Source: Hyaloperonospora brassicae (Eukaryota; Oomycota; Peronosporomycetes; Peronosporales; Peronosporaceae). From it: a stretch of DNA of 64,000 nucleotides. Positions 13,375 to 20,571 of the stretch are shown piece after piece. The number at the start of each line of letters is the position of its first letter. Position 1 is the stretch's first letter. Both the position numbers and the translations under genes were made by a program. The notes below the pieces were generated by a model. That model was not told where the DNA came from. It saw only the letters and a program-made list of their open reading frames with translations, and searched no databases. The stretch covers positions 62,001-126,000 of the forward strand of contig CANTFL010001432.1 of the NCBI GenBank assembly GCA_947650285.1, given 5' to 3'.

Positions 13375-13376
13375 CC

Positions 13377-13389
13377 TGGTAGCACTTCG
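13377..13389 (+). promoter_or_regulatory. E1 primer binding site
   Basis: TGGTAGCACTTCG starts two bases after the 5' LTR. The TGG complements a tRNA 3' CCA, and TGGTAGCA matches the 3' end of many initiator Met tRNAs. E2 has the same site with one change (TGGTAGCACTTTG, minus strand 60336-60324). Confidence 0.75.
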
Positions 13390-13418
13390 TAGTCCTTCCA
13401 AGGACCACATCATCCAAC

Positions 13419-14572
13419 ATGAATATGTTGGATGAAGAAGACACCTTTCACGCCACGCGTGAAGGGTTTACCCATTTGAGTGACATCGAATGGGGTGCGG
13501 TAGAACGAATGAGTTCTACCGTAGGCGAGCTCGTCGTCAGCACCATGTTGGAGTCTCTAGACAGAGACCAACAACATGCTGCTATCGCCAAGTTCATTCA
13601 GAATGAACTTGCTCTCGAGAGGGAGAAAGTAGCCTTGCTTCACCAGCAAGGCTCTCAACAGGCCGAGCAGTTGAGAGAACTCGGTGCTCAACAACCGGAG
13701 CTGTTGAGACATCAGCAATTCCATGCTGCTGTAGGCGGGACGGCGCATGCGCGTCGTCCCGAAATCTTGAAGATTGATATATTCAAGTACAGTGGAGTCC
13801 CGGAGGACTCCCTGTTACTATGGTTTGTCGAACTCGACAGAGACCTAAGGGCTCGTCGCGTCGAAGATGAGCAAATGAGACTCACATTTGCTCATACCCA
13901 CAGGCAGGGCGTGCCAAAACTTGGTCCCTGGGACTCGAGAGTAGCGACCCAAATGTGTTTAGGTCGCTAGATGACTTCAAGTCCCGGCTCAGACAAACGT
14001 TTGAGCCGCCACGGGCTGAGTTCAGGGCTCGTTCAGAGCTCCTGAAACTCAAGCAGGGTAAGCGTGATGTGCACGCTTACGCACAACATATACGACTCCT
14101 TGCGAGTAGTATAACTGCAAACCCAGTTCATGAACACACGTTGATTACGGTGTTCATGCAAGGGCTCGCAGAAGGGCCCGTCAGGAGCCACCTGTTCCGC
14201 CTTGAGCTGAATACGCTCGAAGAAGCGATATCAGCCGCGGAACAGGAAGACTTTAGCATGAGACAGGCTCATGCTAGCTCAAACTCTTACCGTCCACCGA
14301 GACGACAAGAGATCGGAGGTCCAGAACCAATGGACCTCTGCTATGTTGAGAGCGAGAGACCTCGCTCTACAAACAACAAGCGATTGCAGAAGTGCAATCG
14401 CTGTCAGAAGTTAGGGCACTACGCATACGAGTGTAGTGCTCCACGCCCAGTACCAAACAGTACTGAGCGAAATGGACGACCATTCGCCAGAAAGGGCAAT
14501 GGGCGTGGGTCCAGCGCTGTTGCGAAGCCGAAACAGCGAGACGGACCGTCAAAAAATGGTCGGGGTCAGTAG
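13419..14572 (+). pseudogene. gag: E1 gag (capsid/nucleocapsid), frameshifted
   Basis: Gag packages element RNA in cytoplasmic particles. The ATG at 13419 lies 44 bases after the LTR, inside a 10-bp-stem hairpin. The first part (13419 to about 13900) has a heptad-like Gln/Leu-rich segment (LLHQQGSQQAEQLRELG) and the start of a retrotransposon gag domain. A one-base deletion near 13895-13905 relative to E2 breaks the frame. The gag domain then continues in the frame of 13955-14572. One CCHC knuckle, CNRCQKLGHYAYEC, lies at 14393-14434, followed by a basic tail ending at TAG 14570-14572. The pol frame overlaps the gag end in -1. Confidence 0.88.
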
Positions 14573-14590
14573 GGGCGGAGCGCCCTACTG
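14551..14590 (+). promoter_or_regulatory. -1 ribosomal frameshift signal at the gag/pol boundary
   Basis: In gag frame the codons are TCA AAA AAT, giving the slippery heptamer A AAA AAT at 14551-14557. Shifting -1 enters the open pol frame (TGG TCG GGG ...). After a 9-base spacer, CAGTAGGG (14567-14574) pairs perfectly with CCCTACTG (14583-14590), with a further CG/CG pair inside the loop. The gag stop codon lies within the stem. Heptamer, spacer and stem all fit known -1 signals. In E2 the stem is intact, but one extra T follows the heptamer. Confidence 0.75.
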
Positions 14591-18955: not shown

Positions 18956-19519
18956 TACCTCGGTATTCAACCGAGATATCTCCCCGCGAGCTGTCGCCAA
19001 CTCGCCGAAAAGGGAGCGGACATTCCACTCGGCCTGAATCTTCCCTGTGGCGTAATCGGCGCGGTCTCTCGCCCGATCAGCCTCGCGATCCTTGCGGTTC
19101 TTCCGCACGGTATCGGTCAAAGTGTAGCGCCGGTCGCGCTCGTGCTTCAAGTCATCGCGCAATTCATCGATTGCGCGATCCATCTCGTAAGGGTCGAGAT
19201 GGTGAGCCGAATCATCTGGAGGAGGTCTTTCCTCCTCCACCACATCCTTTGGTGGATGCTCACGGTGATCAACGCTTTCTAGTGGAGCGTATCTTGAATC
19301 ACCGTGACGATTCAGGATCAAGGACAAGCTACCTCGTCCAGTGGCGGGGGCATCCACCCTCTTGGAACAGCTGGGAGCCCCGCTCTCAGCTGTTGATGGA
19401 TGTTGAAGGTCTCGTCCGCCAGTATGACGAGACCCATCCGATGAGTCCTGTGGCCCATCGGTAAACACGCGCCCTAGGCGCTTGTAGACGGATTGCAAGT
19501 TTGCAATCGCGTCACGCAT
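18725..19519 (-). CDS. E1 antisense ORF 2, coiled-coil protein
   Basis: A 264-codon ORF on the strand opposite pol. It starts MRDAIANLQSVYKRLG and overlaps the end of antisense ORF 1 by 46 bases. Roughly residues 115-210 form a strongly charged heptad region (DELRDDLKHERDRRY, DRADYATGKIQ, RLNTEVSYLRDQTDRLERER) that should make a long coiled coil. Its middle is the complement of the sense chromodomain and its 3' end the complement of the GPY/F tail, so this stretch is read on both strands. No homolog is recognised. E2 has the same start and overlap but a frameshift in the coil. Function unknown. Confidence 0.6.
   Translation of the reverse strand: MRDAIANLQSVYKRLGRVFTDGPQDSSDGSRHTGGRDLQHPSTAESGAPSCSKRVDAPATGRGSLSLILNRHGDSRYAPLESVDHREHPPKDVVEEERPPPDDSAHHLDPYEMDRAIDELRDDLKHERDRRYTLTDTVRKNRKDREADRARDRADYATGKIQAEWNVRSLFGELATARGEISRLNTEVSYLRDQTDRLERERKNLMDVLERGAIFIGRRRLVLTVRPEPFHVKRRVRAHLTWQFDCVCIVLAMQHSKWPNVLRQ
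18952..19464 (+). CDS. E1 chromodomain reading frame
   Basis: This is a separate sense frame downstream of GPY/F. Its C-terminal third (19273-19431) is a clear chromodomain: FLVERILNHRDD, SYLVQWRGH, SWNSWEPRSQLL, then VEGLVRQYDE. It holds the aromatic and WEP residues typical of chromoviruses, where the domain reads histone marks and directs integration. The first about 100 codons are Arg/Pro/Ser-rich and look like noncoding read of the antisense coiled-coil gene. How the chromodomain is joined to integrase is unclear: it may need a frameshift or splicing. In E2 one chromodomain Trp codon is TGA. Confidence 0.75.
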   Translation: MIPRYSTEISPRELSPTRRKGSGHSTRPESSLWRNRRGLSPDQPRDPCGSSARYRSKCSAGRARASSHRAIHRLRDPSRKGRDGEPNHLEEVFPPPPHPLVDAHGDQRFLVERILNHRDDSGSRTSYLVQWRGHPPSWNSWEPRSQLLMDVEGLVRQYDETHPMSPVAHR

Positions 19520-20442
19520 CTCAGCCGAGATGTGTGCCCTTCCTTAGGGCAAATTTGGGGAGTACACATCCCTATGTGCACGCTGCGAGTTGTCAACACA
19601 ACTCGCACAAGGGTCTCTTCATGTGAGGCAAGGAATGCCTGCCTCACTCGATAAAAACAATGCAACCGGTACCTAGCACCGGTTGGCGTTCGCCTTTCGA
19701 ACCTGAGGCGTGTCGCCTCAAGTTTCTTGAGCCACCCTTCTCGTCCAAAATTCTTTACGTTTTGGACGAACGCGTTCCACGCAGCCAAAAGCGATGTTTT
19801 GTCACGCTTTTGGTTGATGTTGTACCATCGATGTCTAAGAAAGACATCGAGATAAAAGTCTTCTTCAGCGCGAAAGTTCTTCGCGCTGGAGCTCAAGCCG
19901 TGAAGCTTGGTTGCATCGAATAAGGGTATTCGATGGTGTTGGCCTGTCTCGTGAGACAGGCTATTGATGAGCTGTTCGGGTAAACGCCACGGCTTCAACT
20001 CATCAAGCTTCACAGTGGTACCCTTGTCGGTACCACGGCTCCCAGATTGACGACGGCTCGCGCCATCGTCATCACGCTCGTGCGAAGACGCACGAGCCGG
20101 CGGTGGTGAAGAATAGAACTCTCCACCCTGATCATCGTCATCACTGCCGAACAGACTGTGATGCGAATCACGAGTCCGTTCGTTCGGCAGTGGTCTTGGC
20201 GAATACTGAGGCGTCGCCGGTGAGCGAGACGCCTCTGGAGCATTGCCCGAGTCAGACACGTCTGACTCGCCAGAGTAGATGACCTCTACATCAGGGTCAT
20301 CGTGCGCACGCGGCGTGATACCGCGTGCACCTGCAGCACCTGTTGCTGCAGGCGAAGAAGGGGCGGCGGACGACGAATCGTCTGCCGCAGAGGCTTGCAC
20401 AGCACCAGGCTGTGTGGGTCTTGAGTAACCTCGCATAGACAT
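19474..20442 (-). CDS. E1 antisense ORF 1, acidic/Ser-rich N-terminus plus globular part
   Basis: A 322-codon ORF starting MSMRGYSRP, 130 bases inside the 3' LTR and pointing into the element. Residues about 15-130 are Ser/Ala/Pro/Asp-rich with acidic patches (DDPDVEVIYSGESDVSD, GSDDDDQGGE). Residues about 145-280 look globular and are conserved in E2 (DELKPWRLPE, NFRAEEDFYLDVFLRHRWY, AWNAFVQNVKNFGREGWL). There is no long sense ORF opposite this part, so the antisense strand is the coding one here. No known domain is recognised. Position and orientation recall the antisense accessory ORFs reported for some plant Gypsy elements, but no relationship is shown. Confidence 0.65.
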   Translation of the reverse strand: MSMRGYSRPTQPGAVQASAADDSSSAAPSSPAATGAAGARGITPRAHDDPDVEVIYSGESDVSDSGNAPEASRSPATPQYSPRPLPNERTRDSHHSLFGSDDDDQGGEFYSSPPPARASSHERDDDGASRRQSGSRGTDKGTTVKLDELKPWRLPEQLINSLSHETGQHHRIPLFDATKLHGLSSSAKNFRAEEDFYLDVFLRHRWYNINQKRDKTSLLAAWNAFVQNVKNFGREGWLKKLEATRLRFERRTPTGARYRLHCFYRVRQAFLASHEETLVRVVLTTRSVHIGMCTPQICPKEGHTSRLRCVTRLQTCNPSTSA

Positions 20443-20560
20443 GTTGACTAAGCGAGGTCAAGCGGAAAGTGAATGGATTGGACCCAACAAGTGCTCCCTG
20501 TCCCAATAATGGCCAACGGGTGGCCTCCATATTTCGATAGTCACACGTTGACTATCAGTT

Positions 20561-20571
20561 AAGGGGGGTGA
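20561..20571 (+). promoter_or_regulatory. E1 polypurine tract
   Basis: AAGGGGGGTGA lies directly before the 3' LTR and would prime plus-strand synthesis. E2 has a similar run (minus strand 53127-53116). Confidence 0.85.

Follow-up and report, generated by a model that had tools for sequence, protein, structure and literature searches.

The window analyzed here is a stretch of 64,000 nucleotides from the oomycete Hyaloperonospora brassicae (GenBank assembly GCA_947650285.1, contig CANTFL010001432.1, positions 62,001 to 126,000, forward strand). It contains, at 12984-20962 on the plus strand, a Ty3/gypsy chromodomain long terminal repeat (LTR) retrotransposon, E1, which carries short perfect hairpins throughout, including both LTRs. 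In the genes of E1, these hairpins are built through synonymous codon choice. The features of E1, of a second copy (E2), and of a related LTR-like piece in the window are as follows.

12984-13374, plus strand: 5′ LTR of E1, with 7 stems of 6-11 bp
AAAGT flanking each end of 12984-20962, plus strand: target-site duplication of E1
13383-14572, plus strand: gag of E1, in two overlapping frames (13383-13970 and 13871-14572)
14467-15075, plus strand: retroviral aspartyl protease of E1 (Pfam RVP_2, E 3e-9)
15076-17127, plus strand: reverse transcriptase (RT) and RNase H of E1 (Pfam)
17128-18260, plus strand: integrase of E1, in two overlapping frames (17128-17892 and 17688-18260)
18230-18955, plus strand: Tf2-1-like SH3 domain of E1 (Pfam)
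18883-19464, plus strand: chromodomain of E1 (Pfam, E 2e-12)
19474-20457, minus strand: 327-aa antisense open reading frame (ORF); relatives occur in other oomycetes
20572-20962, plus strand: 3′ LTR of E1, 97.4% identical to the 5′ LTR
52723-60731, minus strand: E2, the second copy, with the hairpin density of E1, target-site duplication CTACC, and LTRs that are 95.2% identical
11154-11452, plus strand: LTR-like piece belonging to another subfamily (group B, below), about 79% identical to the E1 LTR

The Pfam domain order along E1 (gag, protease, RT, RNase H, integrase, Tf2-1-like SH3, chromodomain) fits a chromodomain Ty3/gypsy element. Capsid and zinc-knuckle matches fall in the second gag frame, and the integrase core (rve) match is slightly under the cut-off in E1 and over it in E2. 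Since its reading frames are interrupted, E1 is a damaged copy. The LTRs are 391 bases long and end in TGTAAC...GTTACA (TG...CA type). The first hairpin of the LTR (12984-13005) is formed from its own terminal sequence, TGTAACGGG, and the inverted TGTAACGGG recurs at the other LTR end (20948-20962).

Stems were counted as non-overlapping perfect inverted repeats with loops of 3-12 bases, with dinucleotide shuffles as controls; E2 was counted on 52771-60736. With arms of at least 6 bp, E1 has 146 stems and E2 147, against shuffle means of 14.7 and 17.1. Corresponding numbers are 93 and 92 at 8 bp or more (shuffles 0.9 and 1.2), and 63 and 62 at 9 bp or more (0.2 and 0.3). At 7 bp or more, E1 with its LTRs holds 116 stems against 4.4 in shuffles. 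Arms of 6, 7, 8, 9, 10, 11, and 12 bp are found in 30, 23, 30, 32, 21, 9, and 1 stems of E1, respectively, so that the longest reaches 12 bp (1 of 146), and repeats of 15 bp or more are absent. One stem of the group B LTR exceeds all E1 stems, with 14 bp in locus L089 and 13 bp in L084 (row positions 77-112 of the LTR alignment); therefore, the ceiling of about 11-12 bp in E1 can be exceeded.

An earlier, sequence-only reading of this DNA had described an excess of inverted repeats in 13375-20571, and that excess was reproduced: with arms of 6 or more and loops of 3-12, the region holds 132 stems, whereas 50 shuffles averaged 14.6 and never exceeded 25. Its hand count of at least eight hairpins in 13390-13900, where about 0.3 were expected, also holds, since we counted exactly 8 (arm 7 or more, loop up to 10) against a mean of 0.32 and a maximum of 3 in 500 dinucleotide shuffles. 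However, its description of an element made almost entirely of hairpins, one every 20-40 bases, was too strong. Perfect stems of 6 bp or more and the loops they enclose make up 41% of E1, with a median spacing of 40 bases between stem centers (middle half 30-65). The limits it drew were also too narrow, as the pattern fills both LTRs and E2 as well.

The pattern ends with the element. The density of stems of 7 bp or more is 14.5-14.7 per kb within E1 and E2, against 0.7-3.3 per kb in the 1.5-kb flanks. For E1 itself, it is 14.5 per kb over 12984-20962 against 0.7-1.3 per kb in the flanking DNA, with the drop at the LTR ends. Copia A (28429-33119), the nearby element that the earlier reading had set apart as free of the pattern, indeed has stem numbers within its own shuffle range, as have three other stretches of the window. 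The predicted folding energy of E1 is -0.39 kcal/mol per base against -0.27 for shuffles, and it is lower in 53 of 53 windows on both strands, in line with the folding check proposed earlier.

Hairpin density far exceeds what protein sequence and codon usage alone would give, in the codon-preserving test that the earlier reading had proposed. In pol (15076-17127), 21 stems of 8 bp or more were counted, whereas 200 synonymous-codon shuffles that kept the protein gave a mean of 0.5 and a maximum of 3. The 327-aa antisense ORF has 15 such stems against 0.7 in synonymous shuffles, and all 12 tested ORF stretches of E1 and E2 surpass every synonymous shuffle. Coding stems on the plus strand disfavor the register in which two third codon positions face each other: of 91 stems, 18 use it, against 33 and 40 for the other two registers (P 0.016). 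Furthermore, of the 109 coding stems with arms of at least 7 bp, 65 are already at the length where the protein bars another pair, a count in which overlapping ORFs may enter a stem twice.

The proteins themselves are not distorted. In the RT/RNase H region, residues lying wholly inside arms have a frequency among 120 homologs of 0.64 (left arm) and 0.62 (right arm), against 0.65 in spacers, and odd residues number 5 of 85 in arms and 26 of 285 in spacers. This count excluded 21 residues lying partly in arms, the 10 right-side ones of which score 0.51. As arm residues are conserved like others, the codons are bent and the protein is not, and the earlier claim of codons bent to keep the pairing is borne out by synonymous shuffles, residue conservation, and codon register alike. 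A protein bent to permit hairpins was considered and rejected, because arm residues are conserved and the share of feasible stem starts is 1.1% for E1 pol and 1.4-1.6% for two stretches of E2, while two copies of a related, hairpin-free sister lineage have 1.1-1.3%.

A search of the genome (100.6 Mb, 898 contigs) with a 901-base probe gave 2011 first-look candidates. The 40 of these that were scored comprise the window's own match and 39 other places, at 98% identity. Many family matches, among the 150 of 3511 candidates scored, have open frames of at least 1339 aa. Among the best 120 of 1617 related proteins (reverse transcriptases), identity over the aligned part is 65-86%, and every named organism is an oomycete. 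No match to the relatives' DNA was found in the viral-contig and genome-contig collections searched.

The 80 loci fetched from the same genome, in which some copies are represented twice, divide into 74 of the family and 6 of the sister lineage. All 74 family loci are hairpin-dense, with 21-54 stems of 8 bp or more in 3.3-3.9 kb. In contrast, the sister Ty3/gypsy lineage (L059, L066, L072-L075) has one such stem per locus; its DNA is about 64% identical to that of the family where it can be aligned, and its protein, in L072, 61% (266 of 433). Yet sister proteins would permit as many hairpins as those of the family. Specifically, the stems of 8 bp or more that are realized, relative to the maximum the protein allows, are 21 of 49 in E1 pol, 1 of 80 in L072 (3.3 kb), and 0 of 47 in L066. 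Predicted folding of L059, L066, L072, and L075 is slightly under shuffles on both strands, in 18-22 of 22 windows (-0.29 to -0.30 against -0.26).

We next consider how the stems fare among copies. An alignment of 76 rows over E1 positions 2300-5200 defined 61 stems with 500 pairs, and the copy test used 62 distinct copies of the E1-like group (group A). Because these copies also served to define the stems, the test could favor conserved columns, and codon positions 1 and 2 served as control. At third positions, changes present in 4 or more of the 62 copies hit 6 of 209 paired sites and 47 of 405 unpaired ones (P 1e-4), that is, they are about fourfold rarer in stems. On the integrase side, over all positions, the figures are 7 of 395 and 40 of 664 (P 1e-3). 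Shared changes in the same test do not avoid stems at pol codon positions 1 and 2. Changes private to one copy show no difference between paired and unpaired sites, either at third positions (55 of 209 and 115 of 405) or on the integrase side (82 of 395 and 149 of 664). Since private changes are as common in stems as elsewhere and shared ones are rarer, the stems are kept in the multiplying lineage and decay in resting copies.

A second subfamily, group B (L050, L055, L076, L081-L083), allows a deeper comparison. The LTR-like piece at 11154-11452 marks it in the window, as the same LTR type flanks both sides of L055 (contig C458). Differences between the groups fall on 20 of the 303 third positions that are paired and on 81 of the 540 that are unpaired (P 2e-4). 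Stems without counterpart in the other group number 16 of 61 in A and 7 of 52 in B, the far end being covered by few B copies. Since 4 of the 7 B-specific stems overlap an A-specific one, the stretch remains folded with different partners. Group A forms 26 pairs that B lacks; among these, the sister agrees with A in 3, with B in 7, and with B at the sole covered side in 1; the rest are uninformative. In the LTR, 63 pairs are comparable, of which 47 are unchanged, 1 is a double change with pairing kept, and 15 are otherwise changed, while 29 of 155 unpaired sites have changed. RNAalifold, run on the aligned LTRs, predicted 86 pairs, and in none of them had both sides changed. Matched double changes between the groups amount to 4 in one comparison, in three of which an amino-acid position pairs with a third position, and 5 in another.

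Pair types bear on which strand is concerned. Among pair states seen in 4 or more of the 76 rows (which include some copies twice as well as group B), G.U and A.C each occur 11 times, and among the mismatches common to E1 and E2 (1145 identical pairs), each occurs 4 times. Stems with a single mismatch carry G.U and A.C in ratios of 14/11 in E1, 12/14 in E2, and 7/6 in the family locus L035. Only at outer stem ends is G.U slightly ahead (24 against 17 in E1, 20 against 18 in E2). If the sense RNA were the sole target, stems would be expected to accept G.U and reject A.C; the parity of the two speaks against this. The predicted stem energies of E1 have a mean of -11.6 and a standard deviation of 2.9 kcal/mol, and controls with arms drawn randomly from the element were as uniform in 0 of 500 trials for E1, 0 of 500 for E2, and 1 of 500 for L035. 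Longer arms are GC-poorer in E1 (rho -0.33, and -0.74 over the first 2300 bases), a trend that is not significant in L035. We take the energies and the pair symmetry to mean that selection acts on strands of either polarity and keeps stem stability within bounds, although a copying mechanism limited by hairpin strength would be compatible too.

Our preferred explanation, to which we give slightly less than an even chance, is that purifying selection maintains the hairpins so that single strands of both polarities fold on themselves. The strands in question could be the genomic RNA together with the cDNA made from it, or else RNAs of sense and antisense polarity. Selection, rather than a copying bias, would be the cause, and each stem would have to pair on both strands. 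Selection fits because inherited changes are lost from stems and because LTR pairs change singly and not as matched doubles. The benefit might be that fast local folding prevents long duplexes between opposite strands or between different copies, a guess suggested by the antisense ORF and the strand symmetry; alternatively, it might be compact packing in the particle. A fuller statement, for which we consider the chances evenly balanced, is that, by way of synonymous codons, the element turned its whole genome (LTRs, gag-pol, and the antisense gene) into a series of about a hundred hairpins, strictly Watson-Crick and nearly equal in strength, that work on both strands and are held by selection at each round of copying, as a second, structural code.

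Several observations weigh against selection for self-folding. Arms are hardly richer in GC than spacers (52.7% and 51.5%), and no motif is evident in the loops examined. The uniformity of energy is weak in two further family loci (17 of 500 controls in L053, 34 of 500 in L055) and absent when E1 2300-5600 is taken alone (160 of 500). Protein constraint may share in the contrast between groups A and B, because paired codon positions 1 and 2 are also less changed (5 of 289 against 27 of 568, and 7 of 287 against 31 of 572). LTR stems are only mildly conserved, given that 15 of 63 pairs are singly changed between subfamilies. Matched double changes show no excess over slid controls (4 against 0-5 for E1 versus E2; 12 against 0-18 for close copies), in the test of compensatory changes that the sequence-only reading had proposed. 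Predicted 8-mer accessibility is 0.060 in E1 and 0.054 in the sister L072, both under shuffles. Shielding from small RNAs, which we had considered as a function, is thus unsupported, since accessibility is no lower in E1 than in the hairpin-free sister, and the link to silencing raised earlier finds no support in these predictions.

The main rival, which we regard as less likely, is a copying bias. In this view, the reverse transcriptase of the element would snap back wherever it meets a near-palindrome, so that one arm is overwritten with the complement of its partner; harmful results would be purged by selection on the protein, and perfect hairpins would accumulate as a useless by-product. 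Such a process is known from DNA replication (PMC8794818, PMC3820800). It would account for strictly Watson-Crick pairing in which G.U fares no better than A.C, as well as for the featureless loops, the near absence of GC enrichment, the likeness of coding and non-coding parts, the keeping of stems solely in the multiplying lineage, and the extension of so many coding stems to the limit set by the protein. However, multi-base rewriting of an arm was sought in the 62 copies over 2.9 kb and not found; four stems of 8 bp or more carry two or more differences among these copies, each with one in either arm. In the LTRs, matched doubles account for 1 of 16 changed pairs between groups, where free correction would be expected to give about 6-12 (a rough reckoning on 62 pairs, 63 on recount). 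Arm residues are not odd, and the signs of copying direction are weak and contradictory: left arms have a purine excess in E1 and E2 (0.535, P 0.03) that is not significant in L035 and L053, while right arms carry the more usual codons (P 0.012). Template switching by the reverse transcriptase, as proposed in the sequence-only reading, would account for the pairing symmetry and lacks the expected traces among copies.

Genome-scale ordered RNA structure has been proposed in viruses, and the first cause named by the earlier reading was a compact, structured genomic RNA. Selection on the sense RNA alone is, in our judgment, improbable. Folding of the sense strand far below shuffles, third-position maintenance, and stem energies that are more uniform in most tests all agree with it, and to this extent the proposal stood; E1 shares with such genomes a folding energy below shuffles. 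It differs in accepting G.U only on a par with A.C, the arms gain little GC, and the antisense strand folds equally strongly, so the sense RNA would not be the only target. Still less probable, indeed very improbable, is a mechanism acting on integrated DNA, such as cruciforms, host repair, or gene conversion between arms. Strand symmetry would suit it, but private changes strike stems like other sites, meaning that resting copies are not corrected, and the related lineage in the same genome lacks hairpins. Chance, base composition, or codon usage has a negligible probability, being refuted by the dinucleotide and synonymous-codon shuffles and by the fact that every one of the 74 family loci is dense in stems.

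The nearest parallel found is the set of coding palindromes in mitochondrial genes of nematomorphs (PMC6649704). There, too, perfect inverted repeats lie in conserved coding sequence with the protein kept, the third-with-third register is disfavored, and repeats are gained and lost (PMC6649704). The authors of that study raise active repeat conversion as a possibility and state that the mechanism is still to be established (PMC6649704). Those repeats are mitochondrial, fewer, and longer (110 of 15 bp or more in four genomes, mean 43 bp; PMC6649704), whereas the E1 family has about a hundred stems, mostly of 7-11 bp, per 8-kb mobile element, with non-coding LTRs included. The genomic RNA of yeast Ty3 is also a folded RNA of a Ty3 element, but the passages of that study consulted describe a folded core with functional motifs rather than hairpins along the whole genome (PMC11381356). 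Template switching that creates or maintains RNA hairpins would yield perfect stems with strict Watson-Crick pairing as in E1; it concerns DNA replication of RNA genes, and its multi-base footprints were not found in the E1 family copies (PMC8794818). Oomycete chromodomain Ty3/gypsy elements resemble E1 in domains, LTRs, and 5-bp target-site duplications; the one related lineage compared at the DNA level (L059, L066, L072-L075), unlike the E1 family, has no hairpin excess. In the titles and abstract openings listed by searches of open-licence literature, no description of a hairpin-filled retrotransposon was found.

The family thus offers a natural case of very dense secondary structure over a coding genome (in pol, 21 of at most 49 permitted hairpins of 8 bp or more). 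Its hairpin-free relatives within the same genome provide an internal control, and about two thousand first-look candidates allow the evolution of the hairpins to be read. It becomes testable how much structural code a genome can bear atop its protein code, and whether short perfect palindromes arise from selection or from template switching.

The 327-aa antisense ORF has 27 protein relatives, with 47% identity in Hyaloperonospora arabidopsidis and 34-37% in Peronospora matthiolae, and a Pfam scan of it returned no match. Judging from these relatives, it is likely a real antisense gene of the element. A second antisense ORF of 272 aa (18725-19543, minus strand) overlies the chromodomain and gives weak coiled-coil-like Pfam matches under the cut-offs; it may be a by-product of the hairpins, whose arms yield similar codons on either strand. 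Elsewhere in the window, a DDE_1 transposase fragment lies at 42535-43011 on the minus strand (Pfam E 4e-5).

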